Shown piece after piece: positions 216-37,444 of a stretch of DNA of 64,000 nucleotides. Below the pieces are notes generated by a model. It saw only the letters and a program-made list of their open reading frames with translations, did not search any database and was not told the origin of the DNA. Source of the DNA: Naganishia liquefaciens. Taxonomy: Eukaryota; Basidiomycota; Tremellomycetes; Filobasidiales; Filobasidiaceae. The stretch spans positions 63,533 to 127,532 of the forward strand of contig BLZA01000057.1 in the NCBI GenBank assembly GCA_013423385.1, read 5' to 3'. The position numbers and the translations under genes are program-made. Numbering within the stretch: position 1 is the first letter of the stretch; every line of letters starts with the position of its first letter.

Positions 216-1457
216 GTTTGAGTAGAAGGTATGGAATAAACATGCAACGTGTCTACAGGAACCATGACGGTTGCGGAAGACATCATGGCGTAGGCTCTTA
301 TAAGCTATATCACACGCAGACTGCCTTTGCCCGCAATCATGTTGGAAGCAGTCAACCCCGCATTCCGCGTCCACTTTGGGCGGACGGACTAATGCGATGT
401 GGATCCGCACGAAGGCAGCTCGCTCTCGTCAAACCGCTGGATCTGCGTTTGCGGATCATCGTATGCTAGAACCTTTGGGTTCAGATACGGTTGGGTAACA
501 TAGGGTGGTTAGGGGGTAGCCTGAAGGGAGCTTGAGCTTCTGATTGGAGTCCCTCACTATCGGGAGGCTCTCGTTGAGCTTTCCGGTGTTAGTCGATCAA
601 TCGATTCATTCACCCTGACTATCGTGTGCGATATCAGCGATTTGCCGTTGATGTGATGTGCATATGACATTTTTCTTTAAGACCTCGCGTTGTCGGGGCT
701 TGGCCCTGGGTCTGATCCCAGGGCCGTGTTTCAAAGGTGATATCCATTACGTCAAATTTGAAAAAAAGCAGCGCGCTCGTCGTGCTTGACGACGGTCCTC
801 ACTTCGCGTCGGAACCTCGAAGAGCCTGTAATTTTCGAGTCCAGGCCACACTAATGTAGGAGATCCCTTGACACAGATGACAAATCGTCTACTTGGAGTA
901 GAATAAACAATGCCGGGTCTGGAATGGAAAATATGATGTTGGGATGTGGAACGGACAAGAAGGTTGTTTTTGATTGTGAACGATCAGTTTCTTTGGCGCA
1001 AACAGCACAACATCAATTGGGTCTTGCGCAGCGATTGATCAATGTTGCGTACCTCCTAGCCTACGCAAGGGAAAGAAAAGGCAGATATCAGCCATCTGGT
1101 ACCTCTAGTAAGCATTCCAGCCCAAAACCAAGCCTCGCCTACTCGACCCTATCCCAAAAGTTGAATCCAGGTTGAGACAATCGCTGCCCCGACCAGGATT
1201 CGAGGGTTAAGGGCATGAATTGCCATCGAGACCTGTTGAAGAAGGACCTTCAGACGGAATCCCTTGCTTCAACGGGCTGAGCACATCTACAAGTCTGTCT
1301 ACAAAGTGCTATAGCTGCCAGCACGACCAGCGAGCGCTGCTGCAGGTCTTCCATCCAGGGAGCCTGAATACGGACATTGCCAAGCCAACTCCGCGTCCCG
1401 TTCACTGGCCTGTTTATCTGCCATTCCAACAGGCTTGATGAGAGCAAAAAGATTCGA
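216..1457. other. Intergenic region
   Basis: Upstream region of the GH3 gene and downstream flank of tRNA-Gly. Short open frames are present but none has family character or sensible splice sites. An A5 tract at 1446-1450 (T5 on the minus strand) fits a Pol III stop for the tRNA. Confidence 0.5.
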
Positions 1458-1529
1458 TGAGTCCAAGGAGAATCGAACCCCTGCCAGCTGCTTGGAAGGC
1501 AGCTATTCTAACCACTAAACTATGGACCC
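1458..1529 (-). tRNA. tRNA-Gly (anticodon UCC), no intron
   Basis: The minus strand folds as a cloverleaf. The acceptor strands GGGTCCA (1529-1523) and TGGACTC (1465-1459) pair over 7 bp with one G-U pair, and an A follows as discriminator. The D-arm reads TAGTTTAGTGGTTAGAATA. The anticodon arm is CTGCC-TTCCAAG-CAG with anticodon TCC. The T-arm carries the invariant GGTTCGATTC. The order and anticodon arm match eukaryotic tRNA-Gly(UCC). A run of five T follows within 15 nt on the minus strand, as expected for Pol III termination. There is no intron. Confidence 0.93.
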
Positions 1530-1951
1530 AAAGTACTGGAAATCTTCAAAAGCATAAAATATATATGGCAAGCAACATCACGTGCGAGCTGATGACAACC
1601 GGGAAAGCAAGTCGGGGCACTTTCCGAAGAGGCCGGATACGTACGGTGTTCAGCCGGAGAGCGAAGAGGTATCTCGAGGGCAGGCTTAGTGAACGGATTC
1701 CCCTCCTTGGCATCAATAGATATAGCGATCACATTGGTGATAATAATGATAGCTAGAGTGTACCTGAACTCATCCACCCCATACTGCGCTACTTCCTTCG
1801 TGTACAACGTGATGTCTTCGTTGGCATGCCCAGGTATATCACTCGGCTGAATAGTATCCTCCAAAGTCTTTCCAGGACTCTCAAGCCCTACCGTTCTACC
1901 CGCGTGTATTACCAAGCTTACATACCGATACCTTCCGGCGAGGAAGGCCAA
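1520..1951 (-). other. Possible short coding fragment, not assigned
   Basis: An open minus-strand frame overlaps the 5' side of the tRNA-Gly gene. The part from about 1915 to 1763 looks coding and is flanked by an acceptor-like GGGTAG and a donor-like CAG|GTACAC. I recognise no family and cannot find a convincing start or downstream exon. It could be one exon of a small lineage-specific gene or chance. Confidence 0.18.
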
Positions 1952-2133
1952 GCAATGCCGCCATTTCTTGAAGAGACTCCATCCTGATACAGGAACACCC
2001 GGTTCCTGCCAGAGAGATGATTCTCACAGCAAATAGGGCATGAGTTCCGCAAAATACCTTCTCGCGCTGTCAAGACGTGTCCATCCCGATCGGCCTCCCT
2101 ATCCGCATCCCTGTCGACATCATCGTCTTCCTC

Positions 2134-2205
2134 ATTGACCGCCAGATTGACCGCCAGAGTGACCGCCAGATTGACCGCCAGAGTAACCGCCAGATTGACA
2201 GCCGC
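2134..2205. repeat. 12-bp minisatellite, about six units
   Basis: Six head-to-tail copies of ATTGACCGCCAG, some starting AGT or with AACC. In one plus-strand frame it would read as a DRQI/DRQS peptide, but no gene model supports translation. Confidence 0.9.
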
Positions 2206-2374
2206 AGGACGTCACCTTTGCACTTGAGACAGACATGGCAAAGGTCACAGATCAGAGATACTCATACGGGGGTTTCCAGTCCTTTGTGCCTGGCAGCTTG
2301 CCTGATATGCGACATCACAAGTGGGTGAGCGTGAATTCACATCGAACGCTTACGTCAGCGCTCTCAGTCAATGT
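2206..2374. other. Spacer between the two 12-bp minisatellites
   Basis: About 170 bp with no recognised gene or RNA. It separates two arrays whose units look related. Confidence 0.5.
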
Positions 2375-2480
2375 ACCGCTAGATTTACCGGTAGATTTAC
2401 TGCTAGATTTACTGCTAGATTTACTGCTAAGTTTACCGCTACATTTACCGCTAGATTGACAGCTAGATTGACAGCTAGAC
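2375..2480. repeat. 12-bp minisatellite, about nine units
   Basis: Head-to-tail 12-mers of the form GCTAGATTTACC/ACT, ending with two GCTAGATTGACA units. The last units resemble the ATTGACCGCCAG units at 2134-2205, so the two arrays probably share an origin. On the minus strand a frame reads as SSKSSGK-like repeats, but this is probably not translated. Confidence 0.9.
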
Positions 2481-2868
2481 CACTGACAGCAGCGGACGAA
2501 GTGTATCCAGCTTAGCGCAATCATGCAAAACTCGAGCCGGGATATTGAGGGCGGAGGAGTACTGAAAAGGGGCTCCAATGCTTCCGCCGTACGGCGGTCC
2601 GATCTTTTCCCACAGTTTAACGTTGCACACCACACACAGGCCCATCATCCGCATCCACATCCGGTAACCCTAGTATGCGATGTCTGCCCTACGAGCTCGA
2701 GCCGAAAGCCTGGCCGTCCAATGTCCATTGCTCGCTGTCCACTCCTGTCTCACTTCACGTCACGGCAGCAGCGGAAGCAAACCCGGCTTCCACGATCTCC
2801 CCCTATACAGTCACATTATCACCGTAGTAAGCAATCTTCCCACCTCTCCCGTCACCAAACACTGTATC

Positions 2869-4589
2869 ATGGCATCGCACGAGGACGCAATCAACCAGCT
2901 ATGTGCTATCACTGCGACCGAAACAACCATGGGTCGCCGGAGCATTGAGCAGGTCCTGCGATCCACCGACTGGAACGTCGAGGTGAGTTCCCTTATCCCC
3001 TTCACTCGGCGAGCGATGCCTCATTTCGCGCAGCGAGCTGCCGATCTCATCTTTAGCAATCCCGAGGCTCTGCGCCAATCCGAGGCTGTATCGGAGCGGA
3101 AGGCCACAGAGCCACGCCCACGTCGCGTAGAGCCTCGACGACGTGCCCGGGATCCTCCTGTGGCAAGGGTCGGGCTCTTGCATACTCTAATATGGCCAAT
3201 TCGGTTCGTGTTGAGACTCGTCTCCGGTCTTTGGTACCTTCTAGGTGAGTCTTCTGGCCAGGACCCCTTCCGGAGCTAACATTTCGCAGTCCGTAATGTC
3301 CTGCCTCTGGGACTTCTTCCATACATGCCGCGATTCCTCCTGCCTCCATCCGGCACCTCATCAAACTACACGTCCATTCCGTTGGCGCCGACAAGATCCT
3401 TTGTCGAGACTCTACGACAAGAATGCCCCGACGGATACATTCCCGACTTCTGGCGTCAGGATGACGAGGAGCGTCCGACGTATAAAGAGTTTTTGAACCA
3501 CCTCAAGACGGAACGAAAGGTCGGATGCGTTGTTTTGTGCTGCGCGGATCACGAGGACGATTTGGATTTCAAGCGGTAAATACACGCGCGAGTGAGATAG
3601 CTTGCCCAGCTAATGCTTGCGCAGGAATGTCTTGACCAACGAGGAATTCGTCAAGTGTCTTCGGGACAATGAGATCCTTGTTTGGGCAGCGGATATCCGG
3701 GAAAAGGAGGGATACCAGAGTGAGTTATCCCTGCTCCGGATCATTCATCCTCTAACACCATGCAGTCTCTCAAACGCTTCAAGCCACCACATACCCCTCG
3801 CTCTCCTTCTTCTCCCTGATGCCTGTGGGCACATCCGGCTCCTCAAACTCGAAATTCACAATCCTCACGACCGTCCAAGGTCCGCCCTCAACAACGACTT
3901 CCGCTCCATCTCTCATTCAAATGATCACCAACACCATCGTCCCGCGTACACGACCGTTCCTCAATCGTCTCCGACGCGAACGCCAGGCGTTGGAAGAGGC
4001 AAGGCGTGTCCGCAATGAACAAGATCGCATTCTTGCGGAGAGTGAACGTCGCGATCGGGACAAGATTCTCAAGATTCGGCGGGAAAACGAAGAGCGCGCA
4101 AAGAGGGAACGAGAAGAGGCAGAGCAGAGGGAACGCGAGGCCGAGGAATTGCAAGCTGCGCAGGCCCGTGTGGCGGAGCTCAAGGAGCAGATGCGGAACT
4201 GGCGATTACACGTTCGACAGCACCTTGCACCCGAGCCGAGTCCAGATGAAGTCAAGGCGAAACGGGCTGTCCGCGTGCAGATCCGCCTTCCCAATGGGCT
4301 GAAATCGGCGCGCAACGTGCGTGCCTTTCCCGTCGACAGCTCGGCGCGGGACATCTATCTCTGGGCTGAGACGCTCCTGCTCGATCCGACCGAGACCGGT
4401 CCTGGCAGCGTCCCCGCCGGTTTCACAGCCGACTATCCTCCGCGCGCGGACATCCCGCCTTTGACGCTCTTTACCGCTTATCCGCGAAAGGCTGTCTCTG
4501 CGGATGAGCAAGGATGGCAAGTGATCCAACAGGCCGGGGGAAGTCTTGTTATGGAACTCGAAGAACAGGATGGATCGGATTCAGATTAG
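2869..4589 (+). CDS. UBA-UAS-UBX protein of the FAF2/UBXD8 (yeast Ubx2) type
   Basis: Predicted adaptor that recruits Cdc48/p97 to the ER membrane for ER-associated degradation and lipid-droplet control (family knowledge). Five exons (2869-2982, 3034-3244, 3290-3575, 3625-3719, 3766-4589) sum to 509 codons plus stop. The N-terminus is UBA-like. Residues about 85-122 are a hydrophobic hairpin (LLHTLIWPIRFVLRLVSGLW then VRNVLPLGLLPYM), the usual membrane insertion of this family. A thioredoxin-like UAS region with FVETLRQECPD and WAADIREKEGYQ follows. Then comes a long charged Arg/Glu coiled coil (about 270-360), and a C-terminal UBX domain with VRVQIRLPNGLKSARNVRAF. The first ATG of the UBA block was chosen; an ATG further upstream at 2680 reads through a region without family similarity. 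The gene ends 50 bp from the convergent RTA1-like gene. Confidence 0.9.
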
Positions 4590-7220: not shown

Positions 7221-8412
7221 ATGTCTGAGCAAATCGTCTACAAGGGTGCCTGTATCGGCCACGGTGGTGCCGTCACCTCGGTCGCTACCACCAGCGAAAA
7301 CCCTGACATGATCTTGACTGGTTCCCGAGGTTCGTAGGTCAAGCAGGCCTCTCTCACTCGGCATGGGGCTGATCACACACCTCACAGACAAGAAGGTCAT
7401 TGTCTGGCAACTCACTCGTGAAGACGGTGAATACGGTTACCCCAAGAAGATCCTGCACGGTCACAACCACTTCGTCTCCGACGTTGTCATCTCCTCGGAC
7501 GGACAGTTCGCTCTTTCCGCCTCGTGGGACAAGACCTTGCGATTGTGGGACTTGAACACGGGAGAGACCGCCCGACGATTCGTCGGACACACCGGTGACG
7601 TCTTGTCCGTCTCGTTCTCCGCCGACAACCGACAGATCGTCTCGGCCTCGCGAGACCGAACCATCAAATTGTGGAACACCTTGGGTGAATGCAAGTTCAA
7701 CATCACCGAGGACGGCCACACCGAGTGGGTCTCGTGCGTTCGATTCTCGCCCAACCCCATGAACCCCGTCATTGTTTCCGCTGGTTGGGACAAGGTCGTC
7801 AAGGTGAGCGTCGTGACCAAATCTTTCAATCCCATTCCCACATTCGACATGATGCAACGATTATATTTGCTACTTCAGAGGGGTGAAATAGACCCGATGA
7901 GACCACTTATATCACCAAGATCTCTGATCCTCACCTTTCGCATACCCGCTTTCTCTCGTTTGAGACGTTGTTGCTGACATTTTCCGCATCAACAGGTTTG
8001 GGAGCTCAACCGATGCAAGCTCAAGACCAACCACTTCGGTCACACCGGCTACATCAACACCCTCGCCGTCTCCCCCGACGGATCCTTGGCCGCCTCCGGT
8101 GGTAAGGACGGTATCACCATGCTTTGGGACTTGAACGACGGCAAGCACTTGTACTCGCTCGAGGCCGGAGACATTGTCAACTCGCTCGTCTTCTCGCCCA
8201 ACCGATACTGGTTGTGCGCCGCCACCCAGTCGTGCATCAAGATCTTCGACCTCGAGTCCAAGTCGATCGTCGACGAGCTTCGACCCGAATCCCTCTCCAG
8301 CGACAACTCCAAGTCCCCGGAAGCCCTTTCCTTGGCTTGGTCCGCCGACGGACAGACCTTGTTCGCCGGTATGTCCGACAGCACCGTCCGAGTCTGGACC
8401 GTCATTGCCTAA
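7221..8412 (+). CDS. RACK1/Gib2/Asc1 ribosomal WD40 scaffold protein
   Basis: Seven-bladed WD40 protein of the 40S ribosome head; in fungi it also acts as a G-beta-like signalling scaffold (Cryptococcus Gib2, yeast Asc1; family knowledge). Exons 7221-7329, 7388-7803 and 7996-8412 sum exactly to 313 codons plus stop, the usual RACK1 length. Hallmarks are the GH...WD blades, [60 protein letters not shown] and [20 protein letters not shown]. It ends VRVWTVIA. Intron 1 has an unusual donor GTTCGT. Intron 2 (7804-7995, 192 nt) is about four times the local norm and holds a box C/D snoRNA. Twelve of 13 Arg codons are CGA, a strong bias that suggests very high expression. A probable intron also interrupts the 5' UTR. 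Confidence 0.97.
7845..7931 (+). ncRNA. snR24: Box C/D snoRNA U24/snR24 inside RACK1 intron 2
   Basis: Within the 192-nt RACK1 intron lie a C box ATGATGC (7849-7855) and a D box CTGA (7924-7927). Between them are ATTTGCTACTTCAGA (7864-7878), a C'-like CGATGAG (7895-7901) and TATCACCAAGATCT just before the D box. From memory, these two blocks are the guide/D' elements conserved in yeast snR24 and vertebrate U24, which direct 2'-O-methylation of the large rRNA. Yeast snR24 is itself carried in the ASC1 intron and ASC1 is the RACK1 orthologue, so the host gene is conserved as well. Ends are approximate because the terminal stem is weak. Confidence 0.92.
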
Positions 8413-28900: not shown

Positions 28901-29529
28901 CGCCTATCAGTTTGATCGACGTCTACAAAATGCCTAATGAGGTATCGATCAGGAAGACGAGATCAAACGCACCTGCTGCATTGCCTTCCAGTCTTGTATC
29001 CGGATAGCATTCTGGAATACTTGTACGCCTAGCTCCAGATTTGCTGGATCTGCTCTCCAAGCGTTCTGGTACAGCTTCATGAGCTGCGGAACTGATGCAG
29101 AGTCAGCGTTTGTATGGGAAGGGGCGTGATGCAAACTCGCTTTTACGCATAGGACGCAACGCATATCCTAAAGTATGAAGCGTACTCTCGTCGATGACCA
29201 CATCGTCCGGAATTTCTTCATCCGTAACTGCCACAGCGTCCTGGCTCTTCGCTGCTTTGCTGTTCGACCGGACCACGGCGAGGAACGACTGATATGCTTC
29301 ATCGTCCCTCCTTTGCCGTTGCAATGCCACACATTTCAGGGCCCCAATGATGGGGCTGTTTGCTTGTTTTGGATACCGCTTCTGGTACTTTTCAATCTCC
29401 GTCAAGGCATTCTTCGCACGACCTCGTTCGAGTTCGTCTATATGTTGATGGACAGAACGTAAGAGACGGAAGCTGGATGACGAATGAGGTGGACTTGCCG
29501 TAGATGGGCTTGAGCTTCCGTTCTTCCAT
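25904..29529 (-). CDS. NAA25: NatB auxiliary subunit NAA25/Mdm20
   Basis: Large helical TPR-like partner of the Naa20 catalytic subunit. NatB acetylates N-termini beginning Met-Asp/Glu/Asn/Gln, including actin and tropomyosin. The start MEERKLKPIYD-ELERGRAKNA matches the family start (RRLRPIYDYLDNGNNKMA in human NAA25 from memory). It continues IEKYQKRYPKQANSPIIGAL and KCVALQRQRRDDEAYQSFLA. LHTLGYALRPM, QLMKLYQNAWRADPANLELG and RIQDWKAMQQ follow. The mid region has FDNADTLLLYTKILREIGGD, and the end is GFKEMAKEFKKRADN. More than ten exons. The first intron has a GC donor (ACG|GCAAGT) and acceptor ATATAG, forced by the conserved IYDELE junction. Length is about 900 residues, as expected. Confidence 0.9.
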
Positions 29530-29866
29530 TTTGTCTCCACACCCCTCTTGTGTCCTTGGTTGTTCCAAGCGAAACAGTGGGCGATATTCAAGGAGCTTTT
29601 CAATTACAATGCCGCTCCTGAGGCTTCGTCTTCCGAAGAATCGGAGACGAGCTCGTAAAGGAAGCCAGCACGGAAGATGGTTGAGAGACATTCCTCGATC
29701 ACTCAGGTCGATCGCAAAGTGCCCATCTTGCGCTGGTTGCCTCCCGCCTTTCCATTCGCCGACGAGGGTGTGATCAAGCTATATATGTTGGGCCTCCGTG
29801 GGTAAATAGGCACAGTCATTATCTATGCAAGATTACATCTCATTCGCCTCGAATATAATGGCCTGT
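29530..29866. other. Intergenic: NAA25 promoter, 3' flank of the five-cluster gene
   Basis: About 340 bp between two tandem minus-strand genes. No other gene supported. Confidence 0.5.
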
Positions 29867-32800
29867 CTAGGGTAACAGACTCTCTACCGATGTATCGTCT
29901 GCATCGGCCTCCTCCAGACTATACGCAAGCTCGCTAGTCCCGGACGAAGCGTGATGACCAATGTTGCGCGTTTCGGCGCTCATAGCGCCGACCGCATGCG
30001 CAATGGCCTGCACGAGCAGCAGACCTCGGCCCTCCCCGCTCGGCGTCTCTATATCATCCCATCCTAAACCCGATATCAATTCTATTTCGCACATCAGTCC
30101 GGCTGTCGGCCGAAGACCGATTGATTTCGGCTTTCCGTCTTGCTCGACTTGATATTGGTATTCCCCGTCTTCGTCATTGCTCGACTCCTCGTCGCTGATG
30201 CCTAGGATGTCTTCGAATGCCACCCACTGCTGACTTCGTTCAAAGCTTTCGGGATAGTTGGTTTTAGCATTGAGCGCATCGTCCGGAAGGGTGTCAAATT
30301 CGAGCGTCGAGCTCACATTTCTTGGTCGTTTCTTGGCCGCCCTGACAGGCTGGTCGGCTTGGCGTTTCGATGAGCCGGCATCGTCGTTCATGCCCGATCG
30401 ATTGATGTGCCGTGGCTTCTTTGCTACCCGACGTGGCGATGTGACCTGATACTCGGCTCCATCATGTGAATCTTCCCGGTAAGACAGCTGCGCAGCTTTG
30501 CCGTACCTCTTGCTGGTTCTCATAGGCTTCTGAGAGGGCCGTTCTAAGGCTGACGTTTCGGCGATAGATCGATCGTTCCATGCCGGATCCTCGCCTTCTG
30601 CAGGTGGCAGCCATCCGCGCTTTCGCTTGGACTTGCTGGATCGAGGCGAGTCGACATGTTCCTCGAGCGGAATCTCGACGTCGACTTGGTACTCGTATTC
30701 GGAAATGTCTTGAGATGGTGCGGATAGCGCAGAGGGCTCGGACGGAATCAGCGACGTTTGCTTGCGCTTCCCCTCGGAACTTGACTTGCGGGATGTCGAT
30801 GAAGCCTTTTCTTGACGGAAGCCTCGCATTATGGCTTCACGGTATTCGGTTGTTCCAGCATCAGCAGGACCGGCTTCCAGCATGGATTGAATGACGATGT
30901 TGTCGCGGTTGCTCAATCCCAAGTCAGGCATGGCTTTAGTAGGCCTGAAGGCTCTGCCGTTATCCGATGGCCTCTCAGTCTCCGGGAACTCTCCGATATC
31001 GATTGCGTAATTCCGCATGTCATCCGTCGTCCATGGTCGATACACACAAACAGGTCGCTTGATCACCATGCACGCGGCGCATGCTCGATCACCATATCCA
31101 TCACACTTGGTCAAACTGCAAAGGGTCAGCTGCTGGGCTCGGTGGCAGGCTCAGATCTTACTTGAATCGGCAATACTCGCAAGCATGGCTTGCGCGCCGG
31201 TCTGCCGGAATATCCACCATTTGTCGCGGGTTGACTCGGTTGCCATTTTCGTAAAGAGTGCCGGGTAATCTCTTGCTCCTCGTGCCCTCTTTTTCCGGTT
31301 TCCTCCAGCTGACAATCGGCACGGAATTATCGTCGAGATAATATCTGATCGGATAGGGGACCGAGACTGGCAGATCTTCAACGTAGAATGGCTCGATCGG
31401 AATTTTCAGTACTCGTCGAGGGACCGGTCCGACATAGGCATCTCCTGGATCTGATCGAGTGCTCAGGGTCAATAGGTCGTCAGACAGTTCCAAGTCGAAA
31501 TTTCGCCGAGGGATTAGCGGGGCCGGCTGTGACTTCTTTCTACGACTAGGTCGGTAAGGTTCAGGCTCAAGCTCAGGTTCCGACTTCTCCTCGACGTCGA
31601 CGTCGATGATGTCGAGTGCGTCCTCGGATGCGACCGTAGAGACCGCTCGCCCTGCCTTGTCGTGCGACCTTTCGGAGACGTCTCGTTCCCGCCGGCGAAG
31701 ACTCCTGCGTTCGGGAATATCATCTACGTCAAGCATGGCTTCGAGGACAATGCGATCCTGTCTTGTCGTCTGCAGATCAGCGGGAAGCTCGAGCTTGTCG
31801 CGTCGACGGCGACCATGTTCGAGGTCATGCAAATACTGCGCATGCTCATCCCCTGTACACGGCTCGTACAGGCAGACCGGTTGACGGGCTCGGGTGCAGG
31901 CCGAGCAGGGTCGATCGCCATATCCGTCACACTTTTGCAAACTGAGGCCGGGTTAGCAGAGGCACACGTTCCAAGCAATGTACTCACCTAACGCGACAAC
32001 GCTCGCATGGTTGCTGAGCCATACGAATAGCGCGCTCATCAACCGAGCCTTCAGGACCCACGCGGTTTCCGTTCTCGTAAAGTACGCCTTCAGGTTTCGA
32101 GCTCTTGACACCTGCTTCTTCCGGCGCCTCAGAACTGACGACGGTCTGGCCGTCTTTTGGCACAACGTAGTACCGCATGGAATAGGGGACCGAGATTCTC
32201 GTTGAGTCGGGATCGAACCAATCGTGCGAGACCTTGAGCTTTCGTCGCGGCACGAGTCCAGCAAAGCACGCGCTAGGATTGATGATTTCTCGCTCAGCTT
32301 TGGTCTTGCTTCGCTTCTTGAGCTGCTTTTTGCGCTCTGCGGAGGGCTTTGCTGCTAGACTTCGTCCGCTCGGTCTAGGGATCCCGGCAATGTCTGCAAC
32401 CGCTTTTTGACGCGGGGTCGGAATCTCGGGCTCCACTTCTGAACTCAGCACCCGCTTGCGTGTTTGTGATCGGACTGGAATATGGATGGATTCCATCTCT
32501 GCCTGGGACATTCGATCGTCGACATCTTCTCCCAGCAACATCGACTGAAGAATCGCTCGATCATGCATGTCCGTCTGCAGGTAGCCCGGAAGCTGGACAT
32601 GTCGCCTGGATCCCCGCGAGGTAGAAGGGGCAAGGGAGCTGAAACCGACTTCGACGTCTCGCTGTTCTTGTGCTTGATCTGGATTGGTCCAGGGCTCGTA
32701 AACGCAGACTGGTCGGCGCTGCTTCTGGCAAGCCGAGCATGGGCGGTCACCGTAGCCGTCGCATTTGGTAGCACTACATCACATTTAGTGAAACTCAGGA

Positions 32801-35800
32801 AGCAGCGCTGAAGACTTACTTTAGGCGACACAGCTGACAAGCAGCGTTTGCTCGTCGAGTCTCTGGCCGCTCGACCTTGCCATTGGGGTTGACGATGCTT
32901 CCGTCTTCGAATAATGTACCGGGCGGTCGCGAACTCCTACGTCCGGGCTTTTCCGGTGCCGACGAGCTGACAACCGGTGTTCCGTCTTCCGGCATCAAAT
33001 AGTAACGAACACCGTAAGGCACGGATACTGGCAACGCGTCCGGGTCGAACCAATCACTGCCGATCTTTTTGAGCGAGCGAACGGGTTTCAGCCCGTCGAA
33101 GCAAGCGTCTGTATCGATGAACTGTTGCTCGCTGGTCTTCTTCTTCTTCTTCTGACTTAGTGCGGGCTCGCGATCCTTTAAGCTGCGGTTGTATTTGCGC
33201 TTGCGCTGCACCACAGGCGGATTCTGAAGCCGAGGCTCGGGAGATTGCTGGATTGGACTAGAGTAATTTGCCTCGGCATCATGCAGAGAAGGCCAGGGGG
33301 CGTCCATCATCGGCTCATCTTCGTCCTGCTCCGAGCTGACCGGCGCCATTTCGATCCCTTCGTCGACCTGAACCTCCAAATCGAGATCGTCCACGGACGA
33401 CACGGGCGCAATATCTTGTGCCAAAACAGGAGCCTTGTCTTCCGGAGCGTCTTCGAAGGCCTCGGGCGGAAATTCATCCGTGAGCATGGAATGAATGATG
33501 GCTTGATCTCGTTGAGATAATTCGCCTTCAGCGACGGCTGGCGAGACCTGGCGGAATTTTTGAGACACCCCATGTACTTCGCGACGTCTCGATGTCGTTC
33601 CGTATTCCAATGCAGCTTGATGCGCCCGCTGCTGAGCTGTTGACCAGGGCTTAAAGACACAGGTAGGCCGACGTGCCTTCATACATGCCGAACAGGGCCT
33701 ATCACCGTATCCATCGCATTTGCTTTGGCTAGAAAGGGGTCAGCAGGCAACATTACATTATCGTAACACATACCTGGCTCGACAAGCTTCACATGCATGA
33801 TTCGCTCGTCGATCGGCTGGAGCCTTGACTTCACCCTTGGCGTTGACCATATTGCCGTTGGCAAATAGCGTTCCCGAAGGCAACTTGCTCTTTCGTCCGG
33901 CGGCTTCCGGATCTCTCCAGGTGACGATGGGCTGACCGTCCGTCTCGGATAGATAGTAACGAATGGTCTCGGGAACCGAAAGGGCGAGTTGATCGGGATC
34001 GAACCAATCGTTTTGCTTCTGCATCTTTCGTCGGCGAATCGTGCCATTAGAGGGAACAGGTTTGCTAAGAACAGCCTTAGCAGCTGCCGCCGTAGCCTGA
34101 AGATCGTCCGGCTCAACGATCTTGGGGCGTTTTGCAGTCTTTGGTCCTCGCTTTTTGCTAGGCTTTTCCTTTTCCTCGGTTGCCGCGTCCTTGGCGGGGA
34201 ATTGTTTCGGAACATCGATGACAACCTCGAGTGCGTCTACGGCAACATCTGCCAAACCTTCATTCAGAAGTGACTCGTGAGCACCGGTACGGGGTTTCTT
34301 CGGCTTGCGGGCCTTGTGGACTCTTTTCTCCCGCGCAGGTACAGCAGCCTCGGTCTGGGGTGGTCGCAGCTCTGTAGGTTTGGCCATAGTCATTGATTGG
34401 ACAACCTTTTCGTCATCTGCGGTCATCTCGAGCTCTGCAGGGGGAGCATCGCGTTGCCGACGGCGACTGTCTCGACTATTTGTGTCTGCCGGTTGTTCAC
34501 TCCGCTTGAAGCCTGCCTCGAGATCGCCTTTATATTCCTTCAGTTCCTCAACTGTCCATGGCTTGTACAGGCATACAGGTCGTCTGGCTTTGAGACACGT
34601 TGAACATGCACGATCGCCATAGCCGTCGCAGTTTGTCACGCTAAGAAGCATCAGTATCGAAAGTCAGCACGTACGAATCAACTCACCTGTACTTGCAGAA
34701 CTCGCATGCAGTATTCGCCCTCCTGTCTTCCGGTATGTCGACCTTGCCAGCCGGATTGACCCGAGCGCCATCTTCGAACAAAGTTCCTTCGGGAAGATTG
34801 CTCAGCGCGTCAGATGCTTCCGGCTCTCTCCAGCTAACAATCGGTTGCCCCTCCGGTTGAGAGAGGTAGTATCGAATTGAATAGGGAATAGCCGTCGGCA
34901 ATTCGTCGGGATCGAACCAGGACTCTTTAATTCTGAGCTTCTTGCGCGGCGCCAAGACGAGAGCGTCGGATTGCGGTCCTGCATTACGCTCTGTGACCTG
35001 GTCTTGGTCAGCCGCCTCGGCGGACGTTTTTTTGGGCGCCTTCTTTAGAGATTTGGTAGCCTTGGCGGATTCCTGTGTAGGCTCAACAGGTGCGGTTGGG
35101 CCAGGCGCTTCTCCGCCGTCACCAAAATTGGCCAGGAAGAGCAATGCCTCATTCAGTTCTCGTTCCGCCTTCTTTGGCCGCTTACGAGCCTTTGCTGAGT
35201 TAGAAGTCGCGCCGTTTTCGCCTGTCTTTGCGTTGGAATCGTTCACGATGGTAAAATCTTTCTCTGCTTTCGAAGGAGACGGTTCGCCTGCAATCGCTGC
35301 CGTTGGTTGGAAGACGTCGTCAAGGTCATTATCGGCATGCATATCTGTTGCACCGGAAGCTGTGAACTGATCGTTCGCTATGGAAGCAGGCTGCGTGCTG
35401 AGAGTAGCCTGAGTTGTTTCCGTCGCACCTGCCGCTGAAACTTTCGTCAACACGAGCTCGAAGCCGAAACTACTCATGGCTTCATACCTTTTTGCACCGT
35501 TCCCGCGATTATTGGTGCGGAACGCTTCGCCTTCGCGACCTTTCTCCGCTGCGCGCTAGCAGCCGGCACAAGCGGTTCCAAGTCAGCTACGTGTTCTCCT
35601 TCGTCCGCGTCATAATCCCAATGCCTTCGATCGCTCGGGTCGTCCTCTCCATCCTCCTCATGCGCATCCCGCTCTGACGATTCCAGGAGTGCTGATTCGA
35701 AAACGGGAGGCGGCGGTAAGATACTCGTGTTTCTGCTCCCAGCAGCCGCAGATTTCGCTCGGGAACGGCCAAATATCAGATCCGAATCCCCGGGCTCTCC

Positions 35801-37444
35801 CTCGGCGAGTCCAAGAGGCGCACGAAGCATCGCCGCTACGTCATCGTTCGGTGTTGGCCGGAACTTGCCACGTTTGTGCTTTTGAAGCACGACTTCGACG
35901 ATTCGTCGACGTTCGCCGTTGCCTAAAGTGCGCCCAGCCCCACTGCTTCGTGCGCCTGTACCACGGGTAGCTGTGCCACGACCTCTTCCAGCTCCACGTC
36001 CAAGTCCGCGAGACTTGATGGAAGCTCGCTGAAGGTAGTCTGTGAAGCCTGGGTCAATTGCTTTCGAGGTGCTTGCCGATGGTCCATTCATGAATTCCTC
36101 TTCTGCATCCACTCCGCCGCCCATTTCCGCGGTCAAGTCTAGATCTGATTCACCTTCGGCGTCGTCCGTCTCTCCGTCAAGGTAGACTGTCTCAGGTATC
36201 GTTCCGGTAAACGAAACGGTTACTGCGGATGATGGAGCCTTAGGCGGCGACGCAACGTGAACCGGGACCGATTCTGAAGCGACGGGAGAATTTGGCTCTG
36301 TCGTACTCACAGCCTCCACGGCATGAGCGGCTTCCGCGGAGGTGGGGACCGGTACAGAAGAAATTGCGATTGCATTTGAGACAGGAGGAACCGTCGCAGA
36401 CGGGCTCGCGACTTTTGGCGAAGCAGGGGGATTAGGCGTTGCTGGACTCATGACTGGCTCCGAAGCGGAACGCACTGACGTTGGCACTGGAGCATCCAAG
36501 CCGAGGACCGGTGCTGAAATGACCGGGGTAGCTGTTTCCGGTACAGGCACTGAAGCCGAGGGATCTTGGACCGAGGAATCGACTGACAACTGAGGTGCCG
36601 GTAGATCCGGTTGTGACTGCACCGGGGGCGGAGAAACAAACGTCGCAAGCTGGGGCGAGAGTGCGCTCAGACTCGCCGCTAACGGCACTACAGACGCGGC
36701 GTGCTTAGGCGAGACAGCCTCGACGGGCTCCGGCGACTTGGCTGCCACCGGTCGCGAGGGTGGTGGAGCAAGAGGCATCGAGGGTGACGCTGCTGGAGAA
36801 ACGCTAAGCGCTGCGAGTGACGATGGTGTTGGACCTGGGCGACGAGTAGGCTTAGGTTGCGCCGGTGCCCAATGAATAGATTGCGGCGGGACTGGCAAAG
36901 CCTGAATTCGTGGTGCGGGTTTATTCACGGTTTCAACGATGATTGACGCACTTGAAGCGACGATCATCGTGCTTTCCACTGTCGGATCCCGAGGCACCCG
37001 CTCCTGCTGAGCCTCCTGTATCAATCCTGGAATTGCCGAAAGCGGATCTGCCCGCGCCCCAGGTGAAACATCTGAAGGTTCCGAGGTCCCCATTGGGACA
37101 GTCGACCGGATCTCTGAAGTCTGAGGAACCAGATCAATCACTGACGCGCCGGTGTTTTCCGGTTCCGCTGTCGAAGGCTGAAGGATTGCCGGAATATTGA
37201 TGGGCGTAGCAGGAGTTGTTTCTTCTACGCTTTCAATCACCGTCACAGATTCCTCAACCATCATTTCCATACTCGCGTCCCGCTCGTCATCCGTCTTGCT
37301 CCTCATCAGACCGTCCTCGTCTTCATGGAAGAGATCAATGTCCATCCCAGATGGCTGCAAGGCATCCGGATCATCGCTTGATCGTTGCTCGTTCTCGGCA
37401 AGTCGGGACTCCGCAACGGCCATCTCGTCGAGATTTGGCTCCAT
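29867..37444 (-). CDS. Giant protein with five Zn2Cys6 zinc clusters
   Basis: Exons 37444-35488, 35434-34687, 34640-33774, 33728-32820, 32773-31988, 31941-31162 and 31115-29867 sum to 7296 nt, giving 2431 residues. Residues 1-650 are Pro/Ala/Ser/Val-rich and disordered, with a GRGAGRGRG patch. Five clusters of form CX2CX6CX7CX2CX7C follow near residues 902, 1191, 1494, 1756 and 2016 (DNA about 34706-34571, 33793-33659, 32839-32704, 32007-31872, 31181-31046). Cores read CDGYGDRPCSAC. Before each cluster is a block with WFDPD, SVPY.IRYYL and GTLFEDG. After each, about 50-70 residues on, is an RDxxIxxSML motif. Basic, Lys/Arg-rich linkers separate units. The C-terminal 330 residues are acidic. 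Zn2Cys6 domains normally bind CGG-type DNA once per protein. A DNA- or chromatin-binding role here is inference. No fungal transcription-factor middle region is seen. Confidence 0.85.
31046..34706 (-). repeat. Tandem array of five intron-bearing zinc-cluster modules
   Basis: Four internal exons of 867, 909, 786 and 780 nt each begin in the second half of one zinc cluster and end in the first half of the next. The five introns between the modules (34686-34641, 33773-33729, 32819-32774, 31987-31942, 31161-31116) are 46, 45, 46, 46 and 46 nt long. All are phase 2 and all fall between the second and third Cys of the cluster. This is the pattern left by repeated duplication of one exon with its flanking intron. 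Confidence 0.88.

Follow-up and report, generated by a model that had tools for sequence, protein, structure and literature searches.

Five intron-split Zn2Cys6 clusters without the CGG-reading lysine in one predicted protein of Naganishia liquefaciens

A gene of the basidiomycete Naganishia liquefaciens, on the minus strand of a 64,000-nucleotide stretch of contig BLZA01000057.1 (here called the window), is predicted to encode a single chain with five Zn2Cys6 clusters. Every cluster is cut by an intron in the same codon and preceded by a conserved stretch of about 85 amino acids, and none keeps the basic residue that is used by Gal4 to read CGG. Zn2Cys6 proteins form a very large fungal family that is usually pictured as one cluster on one half-site. 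What, then, would five clusters do in one chain? Below we set out the gene, the history of its modules and their departure from ordinary clusters, and weigh a multivalent scaffold, which we tentatively favour, against other roles.

A single gene with five clusters

Joined, the seven exons come to 7296 nucleotides and encode 2431 amino acids with a single terminal stop, running from window position 37444 to 29867, and all six introns are GT-AG (Table 1). The coding frame of exons 1–7 contains only the final stop, and the other frames on both strands have 2 to 25 stops per exon. The strongest evidence for one gene is that half-cluster exons are joined by splicing: each of exons 3–6 begins and ends inside a cluster, none contains a complete one, and splicing completes every cluster. 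Since intron borders, frame and phase also agree, and a relative in Naganishia vaughanmartiniae is predicted as one chain, we give hardly any credence to five or six separate genes or an assembly artefact. The single gene of seven exons put forward in a preliminary description of the window, with separate genes as its named alternative, is borne out by exon joining, frame and phase.

Frame and cluster spacing fix introns 2–6, which were located in the sequence itself; for intron 1 a scan gave many in-frame options, and the 53-nucleotide choice, which yields the 2431 residues of the preliminary description, is a judgement on splice sites. Exon 1 is tied to the gene by the N-terminal 1011 amino acids of the N. 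vaughanmartiniae protein, which match 35576-36478 at 37% identity (E 1.6e-9), and within this poorly conserved part lie the short conserved blocks RRPGPTPSSLAAL and DRRHW.Y..DEG. The two proteins also have in common their start (MEPNL...AES.L) and end (V..LLP), and both chains are net acidic (-55 in the window protein, -108 in the relative). An Rfam scan of the window found nothing inside the gene.

All five clusters have the form CX2CX6CX7CX2CX7C; they start at amino acids 896, 1185, 1488, 1750 and 2010, at distances of 289, 303, 262 and 260 residues, much as first described. Not even one cluster of the general Zn2Cys6 pattern arose in 2000 shuffles of the whole protein, and the pattern CX2CX6CX5-12CX2CX6-8C is matched by five of five clusters both here and in the relative. 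In Pfam, the part from exon 2 on exceeds the curated cut-off of PF00172 (47.8 bits), with four stretches at E up to 1. Scored singly against the 21-bit cut-off, three of the five clusters pass (29.2, 27.2 and 21.1), and clusters 1 and 4 fall below it (14.6 and 18.6) with all six cysteines present. For the suggested PF00172 check the outcome is divided, the chain as a whole passing and the single clusters only in part. Two of the five clusters of the relative pass singly and one gives no match whatever; among the ten modules of the two species, Zn_clus was found in nine, together with three chance families. PF00172 is the only Pfam family over cut-off in either protein, exon 1 giving one sub-threshold match (PF22681, E 0.011). 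The middle homology region, whose Pfam model we take to be PF04082, was not found in this search of the full protein, in agreement with the preliminary description.

None of the 37 places found by searching the whole genome in six frames with PF00172 lies in the five-cluster gene, presumably because each of its clusters is interrupted by an intron. Zinc-cluster counts taken from unspliced DNA will miss genes whose clusters are split in this way.

A module multiplied by exon duplication

Introns 2–6 all lie in phase 2 in the same cluster codon, that of residue 17 in Gal4 numbering, and the lengths of exons 3–6 (Table 1) are each divisible by three. Same-codon phase-2 introns together with half-cluster exons indicate that one exon, together with the introns on either side, was copied in tandem. 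As judged from these features and from the module tree described below, an exon-sized unit had already been duplicated in tandem when the two species separated; it consists of the back half of a cluster, a linker, the stretch of about 85 amino acids and the front half of the following cluster.

The conserved stretch precedes every cluster and is common to the ten modules of the two species, with the consensus PRRKLK..DWFDPD.LPVSVPY.IRYYL...DGQPIVSWR.PE..G..S..P.GTLFEDGNRVNP.G.VD.PADRRANHAC. When the last 110 codons of each exon that carries a front half were aligned, 18 columns were invariant over the five window modules. Compared with the conserved stretch of module 3, those of the other modules show 40-49% identity, and a mis-assembled repeat was rejected on this ground.

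Pfam gave nothing credible on this stretch in any of the ten modules searched. Among PDB profiles, the Sel1 repeat protein 6ok3 was weakly matched, at E 0.044 with the module and 0.7 with the stretch alone, and the matches beside it were zinc clusters and a semaphorin; with the module profile, most matches are to clusters that bind DNA, all of them weak (LEU3, E 0.018; GAL4, 0.075; Pho7, 0.11). Structure prediction of the 110-residue stretch from the five window copies gave a mean predicted local distance difference test score (pLDDT) of 63.1, rising to 72-82 across residues 61-100, where short strands are predicted; the model is too weak for a fold to be named.

Two relatives were found. One is the predicted N. 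vaughanmartiniae protein (P0001; Basidiomycota, Tremellomycetes, Filobasidiales) of 2610 amino acids, and the other a metagenome protein of 561 amino acids from the Joint Genome Institute (P0002). Protein searches covered candidate lengths of 978-3113 amino acids (E up to 0.001) and of 438-1393 and 1435-4567 (E up to 1); they reach just those proteins that share exact 5-residue words, and in the 978-3113 search, which scored 7998 candidates, low-complexity words were perhaps crowding them. Within this scope (438-4567 amino acids, exact 5-residue words) no further relatives appeared. In the genome of N. liquefaciens itself, nine of the ten matches to module 5 lie within the five-cluster gene and the tenth, a weak one (E 0.019), falls in an ordinary zinc-cluster gene; the N-terminal 1011 amino acids of P0001 gave five, all within the gene. 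A tblastn search against plasmids gave no match.

P0001 has five clusters of identical spacing in the same order, so that the cluster number, which the preliminary description had wished to see compared among fungi, is the same in this relative. It is 48% identical over 93% of a 1779-residue query, and a whole-length alignment has 1070 of the 2431 window residues identical. Identity is 61-67% in the modules, 31-39% in the linkers and 32-33% at the two ends; this alignment shows all five modules to be better conserved between the species than the linkers. In a tree of 12 module rows, module k groups with module k across species, with bootstrap values of 99-100 for the five groups, which indicates that the duplications predate the species split and that the copies have escaped homogenisation. 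A probable sister pair is formed by modules 3 and 4 (support 89/95).

P0002 starts at the end of cluster 1 and extends through the front half of cluster 3. Since its cluster 2 is complete, the site of intron 3 is bridged in it. As to a coiled coil through which Gal4-type factors dimerise, a 17-residue helix is predicted after a cluster of P0002 (block pLDDT 80-86) in a model with a mean pLDDT of 45.6. Residues 547-561 depart from the module after CRF in cluster 3, and this end looks like read-through into an unspliced intron at the position of intron 4.

Loss of the CGG-reading features

Gal4 binds the two guanines of CGG through the side chain of Lys18 and contacts phosphates through two arginines; Pho7, with Asn in place of Lys18, keeps both of these linker arginines and still recognises DNA (PMC5559640). 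At position 18 the five clusters of the window protein have V, Q, A, L and L, those of P0001 V, N, A, L and F, and the complete cluster of P0002 Q. Thus, a basic residue is found in 0/5, 0/5 and 0/1, versus K/R in all 30 readable controls from the same genome (Fisher P = 3e-6, with the five duplicates treated as independent). Throughout positions 16-19 none of the 11 module copies is basic. Because its codon is the first complete one downstream of each intron, residue 18 depends on which acceptor is chosen; similar residues occur there in P0001, which was predicted independently.

The controls were drawn from the 37 PF00172 places in the 19.4-Mb, 28-contig genome, namely 35 small stretches and two places in L022 and L023. 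For position 18, the 30 in which Cys1-5 could be read in one exon were used, two of them entered by hand from listings; L041, L044, L047, L051, L055, L056 and L057 were left out, most of which show the second half only. Where one stretch had several matches, that with the largest number of K/R in its loop was used. The Pfam profile itself favours K/R in this loop, and the contrast at position 18 is somewhat flattered by both.

The region after the cluster differs as well. The charge of the 20 residues following Cys6 is -2, +1, -4, -5 and -2 in the window protein, acidic after four of the five clusters, and is negative after all five in P0001. In the 17 of the 35 control stretches with a whole cluster and 20 further residues in one frame, its mean is +2.6 (range -1 to +6; 12 positive, three zero, two negative; P = 0.004).

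Among the 11 module copies, the Cys3-Cys4 loop, DGYGDR(P/A), is 95% identical in pairwise comparison, DGYGDR being the same in all 11, compared with 42% for the Cys2-Cys3 loop and 36% for the Cys5-Cys6 loop. Of the 30 controls, 14 have a Cys3-Cys4 loop of six residues; among these, identity is 34% in the Cys2-Cys3 loop and 41% in the Cys3-Cys4 loop, although here unrelated genes are being compared with paralogues. It is thus the fixed Cys3-Cys4 loop that is unusual, and not the loop carrying Lys18.

What the protein may do

We think it close to an even chance, and slightly short of it, that the protein is a five-module multivalent protein or chromatin scaffold. The clusters would no longer read CGG, because the CGG-reading residues and the basic linker are gone and the DGYGDR loop does not change. 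Each module would fold around its two-zinc cluster, and five such clusters could offer five similar contact surfaces, most likely for a protein partner or chromatin, formed by the unchanging Cys3-Cys4 loop and the new conserved stretch. Flexible linkers of about 90–130 amino acids would space the modules, and one chain might by its valency hold several partner molecules. Linkers 1, 2, 4 and 5 of both species carry an alternating hydrophobic/acidic run (e.g., DALEVVIDVP), and such a motif in four of five linkers was reached by 0.2% and 0.1% of shuffled linkers. This motif presumably resembles a SUMO-interacting motif, which may serve as a lead. We infer zinc binding, a nuclear location and the multivalent role. 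An architectural or chromatin function had been guessed at in the preliminary description, and this guess fits.

Several observations weigh against such a scaffold. Structure predictions are poor both for the conserved stretch and for P0002, and no fold backs a binding surface. Positions 15 and 20 are each still basic in 10 of the 11 module copies, the clusters themselves are not clearly set apart from controls by their net charge (P = 0.12), and their Cys2-Cys3 loop is no more variable than that of controls. Basic patches resembling nuclear localisation signals (11 matches of K[KR]x[KR]) could contact DNA, and the linker motif pattern was defined after the sequence had been inspected. Finally, Pho7 shows that DNA can still be recognised without Lys18 (PMC5559640).

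From this precedent comes the main alternative, plausible by analogy though we would not expect it to prove right: a regulator binding DNA at many sites with a non-canonical specificity, through contacts like those of Pho7 without Lys18 (PMC5559640) and with an affinity for spaced sites. It would account for the intact cysteine spacing of all five clusters, for the three that exceed the Pfam cut-off and for the mostly DNA-binding, if weak, PDB matches. It sits badly with a position 18 that is non-basic in every module copy, with the acidic residues after four of five clusters, and with an invariant loop that is not the one carrying Lys18. The preliminary description proposed that one chain reads arrays of CGG, in the way of a classical regulator. 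Five correctly spaced clusters invite that idea, but with Lys18 missing from all five clusters here and all five of the relative, an acidic stretch after four, and no middle homology region found in Pfam, it is the least likely functional reading and, to our minds, very improbable.

Could splicing set the number of clusters? Whichever of exons 3–6 are skipped (16 combinations, counting that with none skipped), the frame, a single terminal stop and from five down to one complete cluster are preserved, the skipped junctions forming chimeric clusters in silico. Exons 3–6 might then be cassettes of a valency switch, with isoforms of one to five clusters. In Trichoderma, a Gal4-like domain of Xlr2 is gained or lost by microexon splicing (PMC11121469), which lends this some colour. 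However, exon symmetry follows automatically from exon duplication and does not show skipping, and a transcript that retained even a single one of the six introns would meet a stop within a few codons; we regard such a switch as unlikely. A bolder synthesis, in which the cluster domain left DNA reading, joined the new stretch and multiplied into a five-armed scaffold with its arm number set by exon skipping, would likewise seem unlikely, if a shade less so. Within-gene exon duplication provides a clean series of internal paralogues for comparing what each surface binds.

Coordinates and neighbouring features

Table 1. The five-cluster gene and its parts, in window positions; nt, nucleotides
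Feature	Position	Strand	Description
Whole gene	29867..37444	-	ATG at 37444, stop codon 29867-29869; both ends common to P0001
Exon 1	35488..37444	-	652-residue N-terminal part, P/S/A-rich, low conservation
Exon 2	34687..35434	-	end of N-terminal part, module 1 conserved stretch, front half of cluster 1
Exon 3	33774..34640	-	867 nt, symmetric 2-2; cluster 1 back half, linker, conserved stretch, cluster 2 front half
Exon 4	32820..33728	-	909 nt, symmetric 2-2; cluster 2 back half to cluster 3 front half
Exon 5	31988..32773	-	786 nt, symmetric 2-2; cluster 3 back half to cluster 4 front half
Exon 6	31162..31941	-	780 nt, symmetric 2-2; cluster 4 back half to cluster 5 front half
Exon 7	29867..31115	-	cluster 5 back half and C-terminal region
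Intron 1	35435..35487	-	53 nt, phase 1, GTATGA...TTTCAG; exact borders least certain
Intron 2	34641..34686	-	46 nt, phase 2, interrupts cluster 1
Intron 3	33729..33773	-	45 nt, phase 2, interrupts cluster 2
Intron 4	32774..32819	-	46 nt, phase 2, interrupts cluster 3
Intron 5	31942..31987	-	46 nt, phase 2, interrupts cluster 4
Intron 6	31116..31161	-	46 nt, phase 2, interrupts cluster 5
Module 1 stretch	34689..35018	-	final 110 codons of exon 2, containing WFDPD...IRYY...GTLFEDG...VNP...RRAN
Module 2 stretch	33776..34105	-	alignment of five modules
Module 3 stretch	32822..33151	-	alignment of five modules
Module 4 stretch	31990..32319	-	alignment of five modules
Module 5 stretch	31164..31493	-	alignment of five modules

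Elsewhere in the window there are a tRNA gene on the minus strand (1458-1529; Rfam, 65.7 bits) and, on the plus strand, a match to the box C/D small nucleolar RNA SNORD24 that barely exceeds the gathering score (7844-7931; 41.8 against 41). About 260 bases past the stop of the gene, an open frame on the minus strand (29103-29603) appears by eye to be of the tetratricopeptide repeat type, and Pfam gave only a sub-threshold DUF7944 for it. None of the neighbouring open frames had a Pfam match at cut-off.

Comparison with known systems

In the open-licence literature, as far as titles, abstracts and passages allow a judgement from limited evidence, no protein with more than two Zn2Cys6 domains was found. 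A passage of one candidate source concerns two genes and not two domains (PMC4192604). The predicted proteins CCG_02279 and CCM_00582, with two C6 zinc domains each (PMC6471507), resemble the window protein in having more than one cluster, but have two rather than five. A further case lies in the N. liquefaciens genome at L022:3440-3955 (G000:C4:1021939-1022454), where adjacent short frames of one strand hold the first halves of two ordinary Zn2Cys6 clusters, with about 200 nucleotides between them. They probably belong to a single gene whose two clusters sit on different exons, and K/R stands at position 18 in each, unlike in the window protein. Dual-specificity fungal transcription factors, with C2H2 and zinc-cluster domains, also carry more than one zinc domain per chain, but of different types; those described from Aspergillus nidulans have two C2H2 domains and a single zinc cluster, N-terminal in all but one (PMC5415576).

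Schizosaccharomyces pombe Pho7 is like the window protein in that its cluster lies away from the N-terminus and the Gal4 lysine is not kept, but it has one Zn2Cys6 domain and retains the linker arginines, where the window protein is acidic after four of five clusters (PMC5559640).

With the Gal4-type PF00172 domain, the modules have in common the six-cysteine pattern and its spacing, mostly basic residues at positions 15 and 20, and a Pfam match. They differ from it in being five to a chain, none near the N-terminus, in the missing CGG-reading lysine, in that no middle homology region was found, in the acidic residues after four of the five clusters, and in the attached stretch of about 85 amino acids. 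If this holds true, a conserved five-cluster chain without the reading lysine would be a case of the Zn2Cys6 fold put to another use.

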